Assembly (NCBI GenBank): GCA_031260925.1
Contig: JAISKN010000088.1
Span: 1-32,018 of the forward strand
Direction of reading: 5' to 3'
Source of the DNA: Prevotellaceae bacterium
GTDB lineage: Bacteria; Bacteroidota; Bacteroidia; Bacteroidales; Paludibacteraceae
DNA length: 32,018 nt
The position numbers were made by a program, and so were the translations under genes. The notes under the pieces were generated by a model. The model did no database searches, was not told the DNA's origin, and saw nothing but the letters and a program-made list of their open reading frames with translations. Positions 9,705 through 17,429 of this stretch are shown here, one piece after another (position 1 is the stretch's first letter; each line of letters opens with the position of its first letter).

Positions 9705-9902
9705 ATGAATACCGACATTAATTCTTATCGTTTTACCAGCGACACAGAGCCGACTGACGAACAACTTTTTACGATTATGAAAGAGGTTGAAAGCGATGTG
9801 CGCCGCGAAAATGCGGAAAATATTTTGCGAATACAGGAGAATATTCAACGAGAATATAGAAATACGCAGTCAATGTTTCAAAAATCATCTTTGAAAATTT
9901 AA
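9705..9902 (+). CDS. Small hypothetical protein (65 aa), possibly antitoxin-like
   Basis: ATG 9705: MNTDINSYRFTSDTEPTDEQLFTIMKEVESDVRRENAENILRIQENIQ...; promoter TACATTTG just upstream; acidic, helical, coiled-coil-like. Confidence 0.6.
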   Translation: MNTDINSYRFTSDTEPTDEQLFTIMKEVESDVRRENAENILRIQENIQREYRNTQSMFQKSSLKI

Positions 9903-9911
9903 AATAATTTG

Positions 9912-10120
9912 TACCTTTGCACTTTCAAAATTCAAAAAAATATGACTTAAAAAACTGAAAATATAACATAAAAATTTAGCGTTAAAAATAGAATTCTAAC
10001 TTCTGAAACTTCGCAACTTTCAACAGAATTTCTAAAAGAATATACGCTCGCATTGCGGGTTTATGTCTTTTAGAAAGGTAATGCGAAGACCTCAGAAGTG
10101 GATGTAAGTCCGCTTTTTTG
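9912..10120 (+). ncRNA. Candidate structured ncRNA unit, copy A: promoter, AU-rich 5' segment, nested hairpin, intrinsic terminator
   Basis: TACCTTTG at 9912; stems ACTTCTGA(9999)/TCAGAAGT(10092), CTTCGCA(10009)/TGCGAAG(10082), TTTCTAAAAGA(10029)/TCTTTTAGAAA(10066); terminal GCTCGC/GCGGGT; GTGGAT-gtaa-GTCCGCTTTTTTG. Confidence 0.72.
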
Positions 10121-10142
10121 TTTTTCAAAAATATAACAAAAT

Positions 10143-10360
10143 AATAATCAGCCATTGACGGTTTTGGCAGCCAAAAAGTTTATTGCAAAACTATAAATTG
10201 CAAAGTGAAATCTGCAACAACACTCAAAAAAATCTGCAGCGAGAGCAGAAACTCGTAAAAACGGGCAAGGCACTCGCAAAGCCAATCAGAGCGAGAAAAA
10301 AAACAAACAATTTTGCGTACCAGATGCACAAATAAGTCCCAAGGGTATGGGCGAAATAAA
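10143..10360 (+). promoter_or_regulatory. Conserved leader region upstream of a small secreted protein (copy A)
   Basis: Strongly similar to 14139-14356: cagccatt-acggttttggcagccaaaaag...gcagcgagagcagaaactcgtaaaaacgggcaag-cactcgcaaagccaatcagagcg...gcgtaccagatgcacaaataagtccca. Confidence 0.7.
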
Positions 10361-10729
10361 ATGATTAAAAAAAGTTTATTGGTTTTAGTAGCCGTTATCG
10401 GCTTTGGTTTAAGTGCAAATGCAGGAGGAGTTAACGCGGCTGTGCAAGCAGGGTTAAATGTAAATTTGAATGTCTCAGATTTGATACCTAATTCGAGTTA
10501 TTATTTAAAAATAACAAAGAATGGTGATATTGCATACGCCCCTATTTCTTCTTGTCAAATGGCTTTAGAAAAAACTTACGACCTGCTTAAAACGCAAGGT
10601 GTTAGTGAAGTAAGAATTATATCAGAGTCGCCTACACTAAATGGAAGTTGTAGAAATAAAACTTACACAAAGTATGATTTAGAAGAAGTTAAGAAAAGAC
10701 GTGATGGTTGGGCTGGTGGAAAAATATAA
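10361..10729 (+). CDS. Small secreted protein with signal peptide, 122 aa (MIKKSLLVLVAVIGFGLSANA family)
   Basis: Start at ATG 10361 rather than 10313; signal peptide near-identical to that of 14357-14731. Confidence 0.75.
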   Translation: MIKKSLLVLVAVIGFGLSANAGGVNAAVQAGLNVNLNVSDLIPNSSYYLKITKNGDIAYAPISSCQMALEKTYDLLKTQGVSEVRIISESPTLNGSCRNKTYTKYDLEEVKKRRDGWAGGKI

Positions 10730-10844
10730 TAATCTATGAGAAAACTGAAACATTAATTCAAAATTCTTAGGAAGAAAATCGTAAAAAAAACGTAGAATTG
10801 AGTTTGTGATTGAATAGTTTTGTAGATTTGTATTTTATTAAATC

Positions 10845-10878
10845 TGTTAAGTTTTCAGAAACTTAACAGATTTTTTGT
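10845..10878 (+). terminator. Intrinsic terminator
   Basis: aaatctgttaagttttcagaaacttaacagatttttt. Confidence 0.75.
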
Positions 10879-10889
10879 TTGCTAATTTT

Positions 10890-10944
10890 TCATTATTAAT
10901 TGCTATAAGTTGTTTTTTTTATGACTTATAGCAATTAATAATGA
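10890..10944. repeat. Large palindrome with 21-bp perfect arms, directly after the ATPase stop codon
   Basis: TCATTATTAATTGCTATAAGT-tgttttttttatg-ACTTATAGCAATTAATAATGA; core shared with 12435-12467. Confidence 0.9.
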
Positions 10945-10951
10945 TATTTAT

Positions 10952-12367
10952 TTACTTAAACAACTCATTCATAGTGATTTCCGACTGTATATTTCCACTG
11001 TACATATTACGTTTTACTCCGTATGTTGTAACAACGGTTGTATGCACTGCTTTTAGAGTTTTGGTTTCGTTGCGAAAAACCTGCTTTTTGTGGCGTAATT
11101 TTTCATCTAACTCTTTGTCAATCAGCAATAAATCGTTATAAAATTTCATTTCGCAGAGATTTATTATTTTATCGTTGCGGTCAATTACAAGGTCAATTTG
11201 TACATTGTTTTCCGATTTTTTGCTGCGCCATTCCGAAACATTTGTCAGCACTCCTGCAATACCAAGTTTTGCCTTAATCTGTTGTAAATGAGCAAGACAA
11301 ACAAGTTCAAACGCATATCCGCTCCAAGCCCTGTGTTGCGCATTGTCAATCAGATTTGTCCAAAAATTTTCATCATTATTTTTTATATTGTACAAAAAAT
11401 TGAAATAGAAAAGTGTGTAAAAATCAACAAGTTGAAATATGCTTTCACGATTTTTTTTACCAAATTCGTAATATTTTCTGATAAAACCGCACTGTTCCAA
11501 TTCTTCTAACATTCTGGTAGTACCGCCTCCATTGAGCAACCCTGAATTTTTAATAATTTCGGCTCGTGTCAATCCGCAATTTTTTTTGCTCAACATTTCT
11601 ACAATTTTTATATAGTTTTCCGAATGTTTAAAAAGCGAGGCATATAGATTTGAAAACTCTCGTTTCAGCGTTGCATTTTTCTTAAAAAACAGTAAATCAA
11701 TATTTTGAACAATGCTGTATTCTTTTTTTATCAAATTCAAATAATAGGGAATACCGCCCAAAATCATATAATATTCGAGAATTTGATGACGTTCTGCATC
11801 AATATTATTCTCACAAAAAAAACTTTCACACTCTGCAAGCGTAAATGGCTCTAAATAAAGTTGCTGCGTAACGCGGTTGTGCAGTCCGCCGTGATTTTTC
11901 AGAATTTTGCTGATAATCCACGAAGTAGCCGACCCGCAAACAATCAGCAAAATATTAGATTGTGCCGAAGCCCACGAATTCCAAAAATACTCCAATGCCG
12001 ACACAAAATCGGAGCGGTGCGTGTCCAACCAAGGCACTTCGTCAAGAAAAATAACCTGTTTTTCAGTTGTTTGGTTACATTCAAGCATATCGCGAAGTTG
12101 CGCGAAAACATCAAACCACGTTTTTGCTTTCGGGTAGCGCGTTTTGCCGTACAGATTAAGCGATTTTTGGAAATTTTGCAACTGTTTTTTCATATTGCTG
12201 TTGGCAAGTCCCGTATGATAAAAAGCAAATTTGTTATGAAAAAACTCTCTGATTAAGAATGTTTTACCTACTCGCCGTCTGCCGAAAATTACCACAAATT
12301 CGGGTCTATTTGATTCCAAAAATGAGTTTAACTGTTCCTGCTGTTCTATTCTTCCAATAATTTTCAT
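10952..12367 (-). CDS. ATP-binding protein, archaeal-type ATPase (ATPase/DUF234-like) family
   Basis: 'IGRIEQQEQLNSFLESNRPEFVVIFGRRRVGKTFLIREFF' Walker A; 'VIFLDEVPWLDT' Walker B; C-terminal 'WSGYAFELVCLAHLQQIKAKLGI...WRSKKSENNVQIDLVIDRNDKIINLCEMKFY' nuclease-like DUF234. Confidence 0.9.
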   Translation of the reverse strand: MKIIGRIEQQEQLNSFLESNRPEFVVIFGRRRVGKTFLIREFFHNKFAFYHTGLANSNMKKQLQNFQKSLNLYGKTRYPKAKTWFDVFAQLRDMLECNQTTEKQVIFLDEVPWLDTHRSDFVSALEYFWNSWASAQSNILLIVCGSATSWIISKILKNHGGLHNRVTQQLYLEPFTLAECESFFCENNIDAERHQILEYYMILGGIPYYLNLIKKEYSIVQNIDLLFFKKNATLKREFSNLYASLFKHSENYIKIVEMLSKKNCGLTRAEIIKNSGLLNGGGTTRMLEELEQCGFIRKYYEFGKKNRESIFQLVDFYTLFYFNFLYNIKNNDENFWTNLIDNAQHRAWSGYAFELVCLAHLQQIKAKLGIAGVLTNVSEWRSKKSENNVQIDLVIDRNDKIINLCEMKFYNDLLLIDKELDEKLRHKKQVFRNETKTLKAVHTTVVTTYGVKRNMYSGNIQSEITMNELFK

Positions 12368-12434
12368 ACACGAATAATTTTTCTGCAAAAATAGATAAAA
12401 TTAATGATATAAAAAAGTTTTTTGCAGTATTAAA

Positions 12435-12467
12435 TGCTATAAGTCATTTTTTTTATGACTTATAGCA
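12435..12467. repeat. Palindrome matching the core of 10890-10944, on the other side of the ATPase gene
   Basis: TGCTATAAGTCAT-ttttttt-ATGACTTATAGCA. Confidence 0.9.
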
Positions 12468-12502
12468 ACTAATAAGCGTATATTTTGCGTTTCTTTGTTT
12501 TA

Positions 12503-12578
12503 TTTTTTGTTAATTCCGTACCATTCTTTGCTAATTTTTCATTATTTTTATTGTTGAAAAATTTGTACTTTTACCACA
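12503..12578 (+). promoter_or_regulatory. Shared cis element plus TACTTTTA-type promoter of the GH26 gene
   Basis: ttttttgttaattccgtaccattctttgctaatttttcattatttttattgttgaaaaatttgtacttttaccac. Confidence 0.7.
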
Positions 12579-12623
12579 AAATTAATCTGCGCAAATATGC
12601 GTTTAAAAAAAAATCTAAATCCA

Positions 12624-13715
12624 ATGAAAAAACTCTCTTTTCTTTTAATCTCAATGTTTTTTATTGCCTGTTCTCAAAACAACGCTGTAAAAACCAAAGC
12701 CGAATTGCTCGAAGTTCTTAAAAAAACTGCCGAAAAAGGCGAAATTCTCTACGGACATCAGGACGACTTTTTTTATGGTCATTCGTGGGTTGGCGAAAAT
12801 GGGCGTTCCGACACGAAAGACGTTTGCGGCGCGTACCCTGCCGTTTTGGGCATTGATTTGGGCAAAATCGAGTATAACTCCGAGTTTTCGCTCGACAGCG
12901 TGCCGTTTGCTTTTATGCGCGAAAAAATTATCGAACATTGCTCGCGCGGAGGCATTGTCGCTGCCTCGTGGCACGTTGATAACCCAATGACAAACGGCAA
13001 TTCGTGGGACATTGCCTGCGATACTGTTGTCCGCGCCATTCTCAACGAAACGAGCGAAACGCACGCCGTTTTTATGCAATATCTGAAAAATCTGTCCGAT
13101 TTTCTGCTGACTTTGAAATACGAAAACGGCGAAAATATTCCGCTCATTTTCCGTCCTTATCACGAAAATTCGGGCAGTTGGTTTTGGTGGGGGAAAAACT
13201 TTTGCACCGAAAACGAATATATCGCGCTTTGGCGTTTGACAAAAAATTACCTTGACGCGCGCGGTTTAACCAATCTGATTTATTGCTATTCGCCCAATCT
13301 CGGCGCAGACAAAGCCGAATATCTGTCGCGTTATGCGGGCGATGATTTTGTCGATTTGCTCGGTTTCGACATCTATCAGTTTCCGCAGAAAAACGAAAAT
13401 GGCGAAATTGTCGATTTGGCAGACGGGGTTTATATTGAAAATGTAACGCGCTCTTTGTCGTTTTTGACCGAAATCGGCAAAGAACACAACAAGCCGATTG
13501 CCTTTACAGAAACGGGCTGCGAGAGCATTCCCAACCCAAAATGGTGGAGTGAAACGCTGTTGCCTGCAATCGAAAATTTCCCGATATGCTACGTTCTTAC
13601 TTGGCGCAACGCCCACAACCGCCCCGAACATTATTATTCAACATTCGCAGGCGAGCAGAGCGCAGACGATTTTTTGATTTTTTTTAACAATAAAAAAATC
13701 AGGTTTTTGGAATAG
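12624..13715 (+). CDS. Glycoside hydrolase family 26 beta-mannanase-like lipoprotein
   Basis: ATG 12624 (MKKLSFLLISMFFIACSQ); 'ILYGHQDDFFYG', 'YPAVLGIDLGKIE', 'GGIVAASWHVDNPMT', 'PLIFRPYHENSGSWFWWG', 'IAFTETGCE' are GH26 motifs. Confidence 0.9.
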   Translation: MKKLSFLLISMFFIACSQNNAVKTKAELLEVLKKTAEKGEILYGHQDDFFYGHSWVGENGRSDTKDVCGAYPAVLGIDLGKIEYNSEFSLDSVPFAFMREKIIEHCSRGGIVAASWHVDNPMTNGNSWDIACDTVVRAILNETSETHAVFMQYLKNLSDFLLTLKYENGENIPLIFRPYHENSGSWFWWGKNFCTENEYIALWRLTKNYLDARGLTNLIYCYSPNLGADKAEYLSRYAGDDFVDLLGFDIYQFPQKNENGEIVDLADGVYIENVTRSLSFLTEIGKEHNKPIAFTETGCESIPNPKWWSETLLPAIENFPICYVLTWRNAHNRPEHYYSTFAGEQSADDFLIFFNNKKIRFLE

Positions 13716-13783
13716 ATTTTTGTTAATTGTTTGTGGAATAAGAAATAAAATTTGTTCAATTCAAATATTATTTATACTTTTGT

Positions 13784-13816
13784 CGACTAATCTGCAATCT
13801 GATTGCAGATTAGTCG
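13784..13816. repeat. 33-nt perfect palindrome directly downstream of a promoter-like TACTTTTG
   Basis: CGACTAATCTGCAATC-T-GATTGCAGATTAGTCG. Confidence 0.9.
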
Positions 13817-13881
13817 TAATTATATTTAAATAACTTATTATCAATATGTTTTACAAAAGAGATATTGCAAAAGTAAATTTA

Positions 13882-14117
13882 TACCTTTGCACTTTCAAAT
13901 AATAAAAAAATATGACTTAAAAACAGAAAATATAACATAAAAATTTGGGCTTTGCTCTTATTTTCATACCTTTGATAACTGGTAATTTTCAAAAGCAATA
14001 GAAAATAAGTAGAGAAAGTTCGCGTTACGGCGTGAATTTTTCCTCTTATTTACTTGCATAAGTTTTACCAGTACTTCAAAGGTGTAAATACGAAAGAACT
14101 ATTTACGCTTTTTTGTT
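13882..14117 (+). ncRNA. Candidate structured ncRNA unit, copy B
   Basis: TACCTTTG at 13882; stems ACCTTTGA(13968)/TCAAAGGT(14076), ACTGGTAA(13978)/TTACCAGT(14065), AAATAAG(14003)/CTTATTT(14045); terminal TTCGCG/CGTGAA; terminator GTAAATA-cgaaagaac-TATTTACgcTTTTTTG. Confidence 0.72.
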
Positions 14118-14138
14118 TTTTAATATAACCAAATAATA

Positions 14139-14356
14139 ATAATAATCAGCCATTTACGGTTTTGGCAGCCAAAAAGATTAGCATAAAATCTATAAAAATG
14201 CAGTGAAACTGCAATAACACTCAAAAAATATGCAGCGAGAGCAGAAACTCGTAAAAACGGGCAAGACACTCGCAAAGCCAATCAGAGCGGGAAAAATAAA
14301 TTACAAAATCGCGTACCAGATGCACAAATAAGTCCCAAAGGTATGGGCAAATTAAA
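14139..14356 (+). promoter_or_regulatory. Conserved leader region upstream of a small secreted protein (copy B)
   Basis: See 10143-10360; the segment from gcagcgagag to the ATG is the same length in both copies. Confidence 0.7.
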
Positions 14357-14731
14357 ATGATTAAAAAAAGTTTATTGGTTTTAGTAGCCGTAATCGGCTT
14401 TGGTTTTAGTATTAATGCACAAGATTTTTGCGATAAAATTGGAAATCGCATAGAATTTTATCCAGAGGAAGATATGGACAAAAAAGTATCTTTTTTTAAT
14501 GGAGGAGAAGTTCAGTTAGAAGTAGAAGGAACTTTTATGTTAGGTAAATATAAAGTACAACAATCAACAAGTAGTTCACAGGATTATTTGGTAATAGAAT
14601 TCCGTGATAAAGGAAAAACTACTCTTTATGGAAAATACTTTCGAGGCGTAACTACTCGGGAGGGAACAGTACAGAGGGCAGCCTATATTCAGATTCTCGG
14701 AGTAAAACTTGAAAAATGTAAAAAGAAATAG
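14357..14731 (+). CDS. Small secreted protein, 124 aa, same signal peptide family as 10361-10729
   Basis: MIKKSLLVLVAVIGFGFSINAQDFCDKIGNRIEFYPEEDMDKKVSFF...; mature part unrelated to the 10361 protein. Confidence 0.78.
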   Translation: MIKKSLLVLVAVIGFGFSINAQDFCDKIGNRIEFYPEEDMDKKVSFFNGGEVQLEVEGTFMLGKYKVQQSTSSSQDYLVIEFRDKGKTTLYGKYFRGVTTREGTVQRAAYIQILGVKLEKCKKK

Positions 14732-14932
14732 TATTATGTATCTTCCGTCCTGCTGAATTTGCAATGCGCAAACAATGTAATAAAAACAGCAATAAAAATT
14801 TCTTTTACCGCTGTTTTGTTTTTTGCAAAAAATTATATTACCTTTGTGTTGTCATTTTATGATTATCATTTTATGACCAAATTTATAAAATTATGAATAA
14901 TCCATTCATTACCAACGGTTAAACTCAATAAA

Positions 14933-14972
14933 AAAAGCCCTGCAAAAACCTTAAAAACTTTTGCGGGGCTTG
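14933..14972 (+). terminator. Possible intrinsic terminator
   Basis: aagccctgcaaaaaccttaaaaacttttgcggggctt. Confidence 0.55.
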
Positions 14973-14990
14973 TATTTCGTTGCAAGTCCG

Positions 14991-15200
14991 CACTTTTGGC
15001 TGAAAGCCAAAAAATAATTTAGCCCAATCGCAAAGCGTAGCGGCGCGTTGGGTATTGGTTGGGTTATTCTTGGTATTTTCGGGTGTTTTTATAACGGCGT
15101 AAAAAATTATGCTGCCCTTTCAGGGCGCAAATGGTGGGTGGTATCAATTACCCAATGCGTTGCATTGGGCTGAAATATATTTGGCTTTCAGCCAAAAACT
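14991..15200. repeat. ~200-bp MITE-like repeat with imperfect terminal inverted repeats, copy 1
   Basis: cacttttggctgaaagccaaaaaataatttagcccaatcgcaaagcgtagcggcgcgttggg...cccaatgcgttgcattgggctgaaatatatttggctttcagccaaaaa; second copy at 19762-19945. Confidence 0.85.
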
Positions 15201-15216
15201 GCAAAAATCTGTTAAG

Positions 15217-15290
15217 TTTTTTGTTAATTCTGTACCATTCTTTGCTAATTTTACATTATTTTTATTATTAAAAAATTTGTACTTTTACCA
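15217..15290 (+). promoter_or_regulatory. Shared cis element plus promoter of the GH5 gene
   Basis: ttttttgttaattctgtaccattctttgctaattttacattatttttattattaaaaaatttgtacttttacc. Confidence 0.7.
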
Positions 15291-15353
15291 CAAATTTAAT
15301 CTGCGCAAATCTGCGTTTTATCTGCGGTATCTGCGTGCAAAAAAACTGAAAAT

Positions 15354-16331
15354 ATGAAAAAAATCTTTATTCTTTGTTCTTTGCTACTTGTTCTGAATAC
15401 AGGTTGCAACGGCGGTCAAACTTCGCCCGAAAACGACACCACTTTTGTCGGCACTCACGGCTTTCTTGCGGTGAAAGGCACTGCGCTGGTAGATAAAAAC
15501 GGCGAACCGATAGTGCTGCGCGGCGTAAGTTTCGGCTGGCATAATTGGTGGGCGCGGTTTTACAATGCCCAAACCGTTGCCACGCTCAAAAACGATTGGA
15601 AAGCGAACGTTGTACGCGCTGCAATCGGCGTTGAGCCGAACGGCGCGCTGCTCAACAACCCCGCGCTTGCCTACCAGTGTATGATGACCGTTGCCGATGC
15701 CGCAATCGACAATGATATGTACGTTATCATCGATTTTCACGCGCACAATATCAATCTTGACGCGGCAAAATCGTTTTTTACCCAAACAGCCGCGCGCTAC
15801 AAAAATTCGCCGAATGTGATTTACGAAATCTACAACGAACCCGATTACGAAACTTGGGCGGAGGTCAAAAGTTATTCTGTCGAAATAATAAAAACCATTC
15901 GCGAAATTGCGCCGAAAAGCGTTATCATTGTCGGCTCGCCGCATTGGGACCAAGACGTTGATGTTGCCGCCGCCGACCCGATTTTGAACTACGAAAACCT
16001 TATGTATTCGCTGCATTTCTACGCTGCCACGCACAAACAGGACTTGCGCACCCGCGCCGAAAATGCGCTAAAAACGGGCTTGCCGATTTTCGTTTCCGAA
16101 TGTGCAGGAATGGAGGCATCGGGCGATGGCGCAATAAACATTGACGAATGGAACGCTTGGGTTAATTTTATGGAAGAGCGGAAATTAAGTTATGCAATGT
16201 GGTCAATTTCAAACAAAGCCGAAACCTGTTCGATGATAAAAGACGAACAATCGCCTATTTCCGACTGGACAGAAAGCGATTTGAAAGAGTGGGGAAAAAT
16301 TGCAAGAAATCTGTTAAGGGGAAAAAATTGA
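15354..16331 (+). CDS. Glycoside hydrolase family 5 cellulase/mannanase-like lipoprotein
   Basis: 'FLAVKGTALVDKNGEPIVLRGVSFGWHNWW', 'MYVIIDFHAHN', 'VIYEIYNEPDYETW', 'IIVGSPHWDQDVD', 'LPIFVSECAGMEASGDG'. Confidence 0.9.
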   Translation: MKKIFILCSLLLVLNTGCNGGQTSPENDTTFVGTHGFLAVKGTALVDKNGEPIVLRGVSFGWHNWWARFYNAQTVATLKNDWKANVVRAAIGVEPNGALLNNPALAYQCMMTVADAAIDNDMYVIIDFHAHNINLDAAKSFFTQTAARYKNSPNVIYEIYNEPDYETWAEVKSYSVEIIKTIREIAPKSVIIVGSPHWDQDVDVAAADPILNYENLMYSLHFYAATHKQDLRTRAENALKTGLPIFVSECAGMEASGDGAINIDEWNAWVNFMEERKLSYAMWSISNKAETCSMIKDEQSPISDWTESDLKEWGKIARNLLRGKN

Positions 16332-16394
16332 AAAAACTTTTGTAAATAAAAAATAAAATCGTAATTTTGCTGTCGAATTTAAAAACAAAAAAAT

Positions 16395-16820
16395 ATGGAA
16401 AATAATATTGAAATTCCAAAAGGCGAAACATTGGAAGATGTAAAGTTGAGAAAGCAAATTATCAAAATTTTTTATGCTGTATGGAATGCAGCGAACCCTA
16501 CAAAACAAGTGTATAACGCCGATTTGAAGGACTTTATAAATGTACGTTTTTTGTCTATTAACGAAACCGCCGAATTGGCATCAAAGCGGTATTTATCAAC
16601 ATTTGCAGTTACGCATTATTTTACTGAAATATTGGAACTTTCAAAAGAGATACGGCGTACAAAAGCCAAACAGGAGAATGAAAATCAAAAACGTTTTTCC
16701 GAAATAATCGTATTGGAGTATGACAAAAAAGATTTTGGCAAAATAAAATTGACAGCAGGAGTATTGAAAGGCAGCAAACAGAAAATTCAGTATTGCATTA
16801 CAGCAATAGAAAACGACTGA
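16395..16820 (+). CDS. Hypothetical protein (141 aa)
   Basis: ATG with a TAATTTTG promoter-like motif upstream; no recognised family. Confidence 0.65.
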   Translation: MENNIEIPKGETLEDVKLRKQIIKIFYAVWNAANPTKQVYNADLKDFINVRFLSINETAELASKRYLSTFAVTHYFTEILELSKEIRRTKAKQENENQKRFSEIIVLEYDKKDFGKIKLTAGVLKGSKQKIQYCITAIEND

Positions 16821-16993
16821 AAATCAATTAATTATCAGTCGTTTATGTGAATTGCTTAAAAACCCGTCCCGATTTTCCGACAATAGTTATTAAGTAATCA
16901 TTTCTATTGCAAAATTACAACATTATTTTTTATCAACCAAACAATATTCAATATTTAACATTTTTTATATTTTAATAATTTAAAATAAAATTT

Positions 16994-17206
16994 TACCTTT
17001 GCACTTTGAAAATAAAAAATATGGCATAAAAAACTAAAAATATAACATAAAAAAATTAGCGTTATCGCATTATTGTTTTGGAAATCTCGAAAATTTCATA
17101 AGTTCAATATAAGAATAAACGCTCGTGTTTTTACACACGGGCTTATGATTTGAACTTATGGCATTCGAGAGCCACCGAAACGGATTTGTAAGTCCGCTTT
17201 TTTTGT
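16994..17206 (+). ncRNA. Candidate structured ncRNA unit, copy C
   Basis: TACCTTTG at 16994; stems GTTTTGG(17075)/CCGAAAC(17175), CTCGAA(17086)/TTCGAG(17164), CATAAGTTCAA(17097)/TTGAACTTATG(17150); terminal GCTCGTGT/ACACGGGC; terminator CGGATT-tgta-AGTCCG-cTTTTTTT. Confidence 0.75.
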
Positions 17207-17213
17207 AAAAAAA

Positions 17214-17429
17214 ATGAAAGTAAAAAGAATACATATCGGCAATTTGATAAGCGAAAAATTAACATTGCAGGAACGTAATGCAGGTTGGCTGGCGCGGCAC
17301 ATTGGAATGGAAGAGAGTGCCTGCCGCAAAATGCTGAAACGGCACAAAATTGACACTGAACGTATGCAAGATATTTGCTGTGCAATGTCATACGATTTTT
17401 TTACTGATTTGTCCCATTCATTGGAATAA
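17214..17429 (+). CDS. Small helix-turn-helix-like DNA-binding protein
   Basis: 'ISEKLTLQERNAGWLARHIGMEESACRKMLKRHKIDTERMQDICCAMSYDFFTDLS' resembles a Cro/XRE-like HTH. Confidence 0.65.
   Translation: MKVKRIHIGNLISEKLTLQERNAGWLARHIGMEESACRKMLKRHKIDTERMQDICCAMSYDFFTDLSHSLE

Follow-up and report, generated by a model that had tools for sequence, protein, structure and literature searches.

A family of structured, putative leader RNAs with highly variable stems, found ahead of accessory genes in Bacteroidota

Three intergenic units in the window share one fold

The DNA analysed here, referred to as the window, is a contig of 32,018 nucleotides (JAISKN010000088.1, positions 1 to 32,018) from a Prevotellaceae bacterium (GenBank assembly GCA_031260925.1), and it belongs to a draft genome of 3.02 Mb in 357 contigs, which we call G000. 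A preliminary description, made from the sequence alone, had placed in it three intergenic units (9912-10120, 13882-14117 and 16994-17206; here copies A, B and C), and all three are present. Each contains an element that we name RNA1. It is a structured, putative leader RNA, roughly 180-200 nt long, and constitutes a new family in Bacteroidota. The parts of the three copies are given below; promoter boxes, micro-ORFs (very short open reading frames), terminator-like hairpins and the gene after copy C were read directly from the sequence, and loci elsewhere carry our own L numbers.

Copy A
9912..9919, + strand: promoter -7 box TACCTTTG; the pattern TAnnTTTG is enriched before family members
9942..9950, + strand: micro-ORF ATG-ACT-TAA in the AU-rich leader
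9999..10099, + strand: RNA1 core (model R3, E 4.3e-9; descriptor rank 1; fold z -5.1), pairing as stem 1 ACTTCTGA/TCAGAAGT, stem 2 CTTCGCA/TGCGAAG, stem 3 TTTCTAAAAGA/TCTTTTAGAAA and an apical hairpin
10098..10120, + strand: terminator-like hairpin and U-tract, GTGGATGTAAGTCCGCTTTTTT
10204..10303, + strand: RNA2, a DUF805-like leader element conserved at nine other places in the genome (E<=3e-3)
10361..10729, + strand: gene for a small exported protein, with a signal-peptide-like start (MIKKSLLVLVAVIGFG) and no match in Pfam
Copy B
13882..13889, + strand: promoter -7 box TACCTTTG
13912..13920, + strand: micro-ORF ATG-ACT-TAA
13968..14083, + strand: RNA1 core (R3, E 2.9e-9, outside the training set), pairing as stem 1 ACCTTTGA/TCAAAGGT, stem 2 ACTGGTAA/TTACCAGT, inner stems and an apical hairpin
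14082..14115, + strand: terminator-like hairpin and U-tract, GTGTAAATA...TATTTACGCTTTTTT
14195..14301, + strand: RNA2, a close homologue of the copy A element
14357..14731, + strand: gene for a small exported protein, with a signal-peptide-like start as after copy A and a different mature protein
Copy C
16994..17001, + strand: promoter -7 box TACCTTTG
17021..17029, + strand: micro-ORF ATG-GCA-TAA
17075..17181, + strand: RNA1 core (R3, E 2e-7, outside the training set), pairing as stem 1 GTTTTGG/CCGAAAC, stem 2 CTCGAA/TTCGAG, stem 3 CATAAGTTCAA/TTGAACTTATG and an apical hairpin
17181..17206, + strand: terminator-like hairpin and U-tract, CGGATTTGTAAGTCCGCTTTTTTT
17214..17429, + strand: gene for a small helix-turn-helix (HTH) protein, starting 8 nt past the U-tract, as in at least 14 other members (e.g. 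locus L112)

The same fold is found in all three copies, as had been proposed: against dinucleotide shuffles their hairpin regions gave z scores of -5.1, -5.6 and -5.5, with no equal among 200 shuffles. When positions 9801-17400 were scanned with a descriptor of three nested perfect stems, the first three ranks went to A (9999-10099), C (17073-17183) and B (13966-14085), and shuffled DNA yielded lower scores only. Model R3 (described below) recovered the three copies from the window with the E values listed above, and the fourth match stood at E 0.12. The arms differ between the copies, with a stem identity of 0.45 for A and B, 0.32 for A and C, and 0.14 for B and C. The stems originally listed stand as a plan, with the correction that stem 1 of copy C contains one G-U pair.

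Other shared parts had been claimed as well. The promoter boxes are present, but TACCTTTGCACTTTC is not specific to the RNA, as it also precedes ordinary genes of the genome (e.g. at L012 and L020); the promoter common to A, B and C is a general promoter of this genome. The intrinsic terminator is clear as a local hairpin in the window copies, whereas across the family only the U-tract is near-universal.

Compensatory changes support the RNA1 structure

A first covariance model, built from three copies, brought in further members, and relaxed searches connected these to window copy A. The alignment was seeded with three type II sequences and then widened under guidance of the model; MAFFT applied to all members misplaces stem 3. 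Model R2 comprises 21 members and model R3 comprises 101 loci, including copy A and excluding copies B and C. The full set used for comparison holds 213 units from 101 genomes that follow one plan of 31 pairs.

The covariation noted in three copies held in a larger alignment. Among 102 members, of which window copy A is the only one also in the training set, the covariation score was 0.949, compared with 0.231 after shuffling and at most 0.126 in slid controls; 95.7% of cells pair, and 30 of the 31 pairs have changed on both sides. The 33 copies of G000 alone gave 0.953, against 0.215 when shuffled. These alignments were fitted to the structure, which biases them in its favour; the slid controls and the untrained matches to B and C are independent of that fitting. 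The RNA1 structure is under selection. Chance palindromes or plain terminators might have been expected in AT-rich, terminator-rich intergenic DNA, but an explanation of this kind is refuted by the shared plan and its compensatory changes, as well as by the lower descriptor scores on shuffled DNA, and we assign it almost no probability.

RNA1 is a three-stem rod capped by an apical GC hairpin. Stem 1 has 8 bp, stem 2 has 7 bp and stem 3 at least 7 bp. The internal loop between stems 1 and 2 has a conserved AA on its 5' side and CC-U on its 3' side, the loop between stems 2 and 3 has a conserved AGGY on its 3' side, and the apex is conserved as AAGAATAAGT...CTTAT enclosing the GC hairpin. The leader ahead of stem 1 measures some 60-100 nt and is often AU-rich; many leaders contain a small 5' hairpin, AATAGCG...GCTATT. 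A micro-ORF of the form ATG-NNN-stop occurs near the 5' end in 78 of the 213 leaders, compared with 17-22 for neighbouring lengths, and is thus about four times commoner. At L112 the upstream PIN gene ends where this micro-ORF lies. At L138 and L137 a leader hairpin with the loop TAGCGA covaries (CCGCTG/CAGCGG versus CAATTG/CAATTG) in front of RNA1 cores that are 97% identical.

The stems depart from the usual rule for helices. In the 213 units, G-U pairs make up 0.9% of the inner pairs of stem 1, 0.6% of stem 2 and 2.1% of stem 3, compared with 16.2% of the apical stem. The apical stem behaves like ordinary RNA, and stems 1 and 2 do not.

RNA1 is widespread and is absent from Rfam 15

At other places in G000 both the 5' segment and the post-terminator sequence recur, and every such place that we read has the same plan. 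The family is therefore not one of three copies, as had been supposed: G000 carries more than 40, with 44 R3 matches at E 0.01 and, in addition, copy C, which that faster search missed. The copies are spread across the genome and are not in short arrays. Beyond G000, R2 detected RNA1 in 107 of the 358 sampled genomes of the family, covering 20 of 33 genera. For the order, R3 matches occurred in 116 of 393 genomes and 73 of 207 genera, and a stricter cut-off applied to the phylum left 28 of 396 genomes. Many copies in the order-wide R3 search lie near contig ends. Named relatives with the apical motif are Bacteroidales metagenome-assembled genomes labelled Prevotellaceae, Dysgonamonadaceae, Tannerellaceae and Paludibacter; going by their isolate labels, our guess is that these come from gut-insect samples. 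The exact apical pattern was not found in viral contigs, and one RNA1 query each against phages and plasmids returned no match.

Outside the order (L363, L364, L366-L368 and L371), RNA1 lies 250-440 nt ahead of genes for TonB-linked-outer-membrane-like proteins. Stem 2 at these loci is mostly ACTGGTA, the same as in window copy B.

The preliminary description could assign RNA1 to no known family and had named 6S RNA as one to check. This judgement holds: a scan of the window with Rfam 15 at the gathering threshold placed nothing over RNA1, and 6S RNA was rejected on this ground. At relaxed E-values the best chance matches to window copy A had E 0.8 or worse, and RNA1 also went unmatched at eight loci of the same genome, 18 loci of other genomes and 11 loci outside the order. 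A structured RNA with more than 40 copies per genome, present in about 30% of the order's sampled genomes, thus lacks an Rfam 15 entry, and the literature that we searched held no description of it. Two palindromic structured candidates from Bacteroidetes, HMP_4078 (109 bp) and HMP2_4205 (132 bp), one of them near integrase genes (Fremin and Bhatt 2021, PMC8040213), are similar in length and might overlap with RNA1. Retrons, IS110 bridge RNAs, OMEGA RNAs and group II introns were also considered as candidates and rejected, as neither a reverse transcriptase nor a transposase is a constant neighbour.

RNA1 is oriented towards accessory genes

Of 188 genes that come next after RNA1, 183 share its strand and 5 lie on the opposite one, and stem 1 ends a median of 96 nt before the ATG. 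The Bacteroidota promoter box TAnnTTTG lies ahead of RNA1 in 66 of 162 cases, where 18.0 were expected, and between RNA1 and the gene in 29, where 17.6 were expected. A U-tract (T5 within 70 nt) follows RNA1 in 193 of the 213 members. A 5'-3' closing stem between P0 and the U-tract was rejected, a member's own 3' segment doing better than those of other members in 58% of comparisons.

The gene classes around RNA1 are descriptive tallies, made without a random-locus control. Among 97 downstream proteins scanned with Pfam, DNA methylase was the commonest (7); restriction subunits, LRR_5, secretion tails and Fib_succ_major came next, and PADLOC assigned downstream genes to restriction-modification types II, III and IIG. 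By a crude motif, roughly one in two of the nearest ORFs has a start resembling that of exported proteins, and 14 encode small HTH proteins. Upstream genes are often of toxin or antirepressor type; they include DUF1016/YhcG, Bro-N, PIN, ORF6N, RhuM, HEPN, DUF3990 and one integrase, together with housekeeping genes. Little is known of how the restriction-modification, HTH and surface-protein genes that RNA1 precedes are controlled in Bacteroidota.

One small HTH family (~70 aa, HIGxLIRxEL...DFF) directly follows RNA1 in many genera, namely at window positions 17214-17429 and at L112, L125, L132, L169, L170, L179, L214, L222, L223, L225, L271, L276, L277, L281 and L282.

Of the systems known to us, attenuators and other terminator-bearing 5' leaders offer the working analogue. 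As in these, a structured RNA has a 5' micro-ORF and a preceding promoter in many copies, the stable structure is followed by a U-tract, and a co-directional gene comes next. RNA1 differs in that it has no run of amino-acid codons, its downstream genes share no pathway, its stems behave as conserved locus tags, and its read-through is putative. An alternative is that RNA1 acts as a free small RNA (guide, decoy, antisense or incompatibility-type), its arms or loops pairing with specific targets at other places, and that its position ahead of genes is secondary. The U-tract, the promoter that many copies have of their own and the conservation of tag-like stems between species would agree with this; nevertheless, we consider it unlikely, since its arms are locked into stable stems and nearly every copy points at a close downstream gene. 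It is this strict orientation that makes us prefer a leader to a free guide.

Stems are kept between some genomes and usually rewritten between paralogs

In the 213 units, identity over the 22 stem pairs was set against identity of the flanks, taken as 80 nt upstream and 140 nt downstream with gaps counted as differences. Where flank identity was at least 0.82, mean stem identity was 0.49 for pairs within a genome (9 pairs) and 0.86 for pairs from different genomes (8 pairs; one-sided P 7e-4). L233 and L234, from one genome, have flanks 0.94 identical and near-identical genes, while their stems, at 0.36, are at background level. Conversely, L185, L190 and L290, from two families, are identical in 22 of 22 pairs, yet their flanks reach merely 0.67-0.74 and their apical hairpins differ. 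Further fully identical stems between genomes were found in L117/L255, L108/L273, L138/L137, L188/L199, L172/L200, L264/L257 and L222/L223. Loci with the same tag mostly stand before genes of the same class even if the proteins are unrelated, with L108/L273 and L263/L251 as exceptions.

The stems are thus kept by locus and lineage and are usually not common to paralogs; exclusion is neither absolute nor statistically shown. The absence of identical tags within genomes proves little, because identical tags are rare between genomes too. In G000, where the 528 pairs have a mean stem identity of 0.34, strict exclusion is ruled out by L347 and L350 (contigs C189 and C190), which share identical stems. 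In this pair the 5' flanks are also identical, the downstream genes differ and both loci lie at contig ends; they may represent a recent duplication or a strain mixture.

The suggestion that the variable arms determine specificity gains support from stems that are fixed between some genera and rewritten between paralogs of one genome. No target was found to support the associated ideas of a guide, decoy or immunity RNA. Complementarity of the stems to their own flanks did not exceed that to the flanks of other members or chance, and in the genome the B tag had no further exact or near-exact match (<=2 mismatches) and the A tag had look-alike sites only. The lack of a second full match for these two tags, together with the flank result, also speaks against the free small RNA. 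In plasmid copy-control antisense RNAs, the sequence of a stem-loop sets specificity and prevents cross-reaction of related units. RNA1 resembles them in this respect, but no antisense partner was seen.

An ordinary metabolite-binding riboswitch with stems free to drift would account for the leader position and the conserved internal loops. We regard this as quite improbable: in some comparisons between species the stems stay constant and the apical hairpin changes, and the downstream genes lack a common pathway.

The stems could also act as DNA, in a single-stranded or cruciform unit that serves as a recombination or cassette-boundary site amid turnover of accessory genes. Integron attC sites are comparable in being hairpins of two or three short perfect variable stems near accessory genes. 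In line with a DNA site, stems 1-3 are almost wholly Watson-Crick, one core occurs in different gene contexts and one context with another core, and the neighbours are cargo-like (restriction-modification and toxin-type genes), with one copy adjoining a tyrosine recombinase and many near contig ends. However, stem 1 has no conserved recombinase core, and the dispersed copies show a strict strand bias, promoters, a U-tract and an apical stem that tolerates G-U as RNA does. To us this makes a DNA site improbable. Integron attC sites themselves were rejected, since their RYYYAAC/GTTRRRY core is not conserved in stem 1 of 101 aligned members and RNA1 lies in transcribed orientation; an integron cassette array was rejected on the dispersal of the copies and on an integrase adjoining just 1 of 57 scanned upstream genes.

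A proposed model for RNA1 as a tagged leader attenuator

We give about an even chance to the reading that RNA1 is a transcribed leader attenuator before accessory genes, in which the stems are locus-specific tags that keep the copies apart. In this model, transcription of RNA1 would begin at its own promoter or enter from the preceding gene, and it would stop at the U-tract. Read-through would allow expression of the downstream accessory gene, be it for restriction-modification, an HTH protein or an exported or surface protein. The stem tag would be under purifying selection, its pairs being nearly all Watson-Crick. Finally, and this is our best guess and the least certain step, the tag might make each switch pair only with itself, so that many copies could operate in one cell without cross-talk. 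Structure, U-tract, orientation, promoter enrichment and the behaviour of the tags are observed; from these we infer transcription, termination at the U-tract, regulated read-through and insulation by tags. The Watson-Crick bias would suit insulation, as wobble pairs would make cross-pairing broader; it would also suit a helix-reading protein or a function as DNA.

Several observations weigh against this model. Local GC terminator hairpins are not a clear general feature, with 70 of 193 members below -5 kcal compared with 41 in shuffles. Copies without a recognisable promoter are numerous and may instead terminate an upstream transcript. The tag comparison is based on 17 close pairs, some with loci in common; L347 and L350 make the tags not strictly exclusive, and certain loci with the same tag stand before unrelated proteins. 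No partner for the tags was found in their own flanks or in the genome scan with the A and B tags.

Tentatively, and with more doubt than confidence, we further propose that the stems are inherited address tags circulating as a pool among Bacteroidota. Each tag might be recognised in a sequence-specific manner by its own second copy or by another factor, and each new copy in a genome would be pushed towards a new tag; in this way more than 40 like switches of defence and surface genes could remain independent. Should the tags matter, they would show how many like RNA switches can coexist, and they may be a source of orthogonal parts.

RNA2 and other features of the region

The unit plan of the preliminary description applies to RNA1, and we add to it that copies A and B are followed by a second conserved element, RNA2. 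It also follows many other copies and is related to the DUF805 RNA of Rfam. With the DUF805 model, the window elements scored 17.5 bits (A, 10235-10299) and 20.1 bits (B, 14231-14297), below the cut-off of 51.1; relatives of RNA2 in the same genome scored 62.6 (contig C9), 49.9 (C332) and, in another case, 42.3 bits. At L199, DUF805b reached 34.2 bits after RNA1 (cut-off 35.6). Thus, the Rfam families DUF805 (RF03081) and DUF805b (RF02914) of clan CL00115 have a relative downstream of RNA1 in many copies, but they match the neighbouring RNA2 and not RNA1.

L092 (G072:C350:7000-15500) is a tight array of DUF805 RNAs before successive membrane or lipoprotein genes (DUF4190-like, WG repeats), with no RNA1. 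At L044, L045, L046, L047, L052, L076 and L078, a DUF805-like RNA lies inside an ORF (e.g. L046:853-920), and the products of these ORFs join a conserved N-terminal peptide (…SAMERETISKNRVSPKNVRSRGN) to signal peptides that vary. At these loci, either part of the DUF805 RNA is coding or the RNA overlaps with the peptide.

Between copies A and B, two near-identical palindromes with arms of 20-21 bp (10890-10944 and 12425-12475) lie on either side of an ATPase/DUF234 gene (10952-12388), which looks as if it were a mobile cassette. A repeat at about 14990-15200 of the window, GCCCAATCGCAAAGCG(T/C)AGCGGCGCGTTGGG...CCCAATGCGTTGCATTGGGCT, recurs in the genome, also at L036 and L060.

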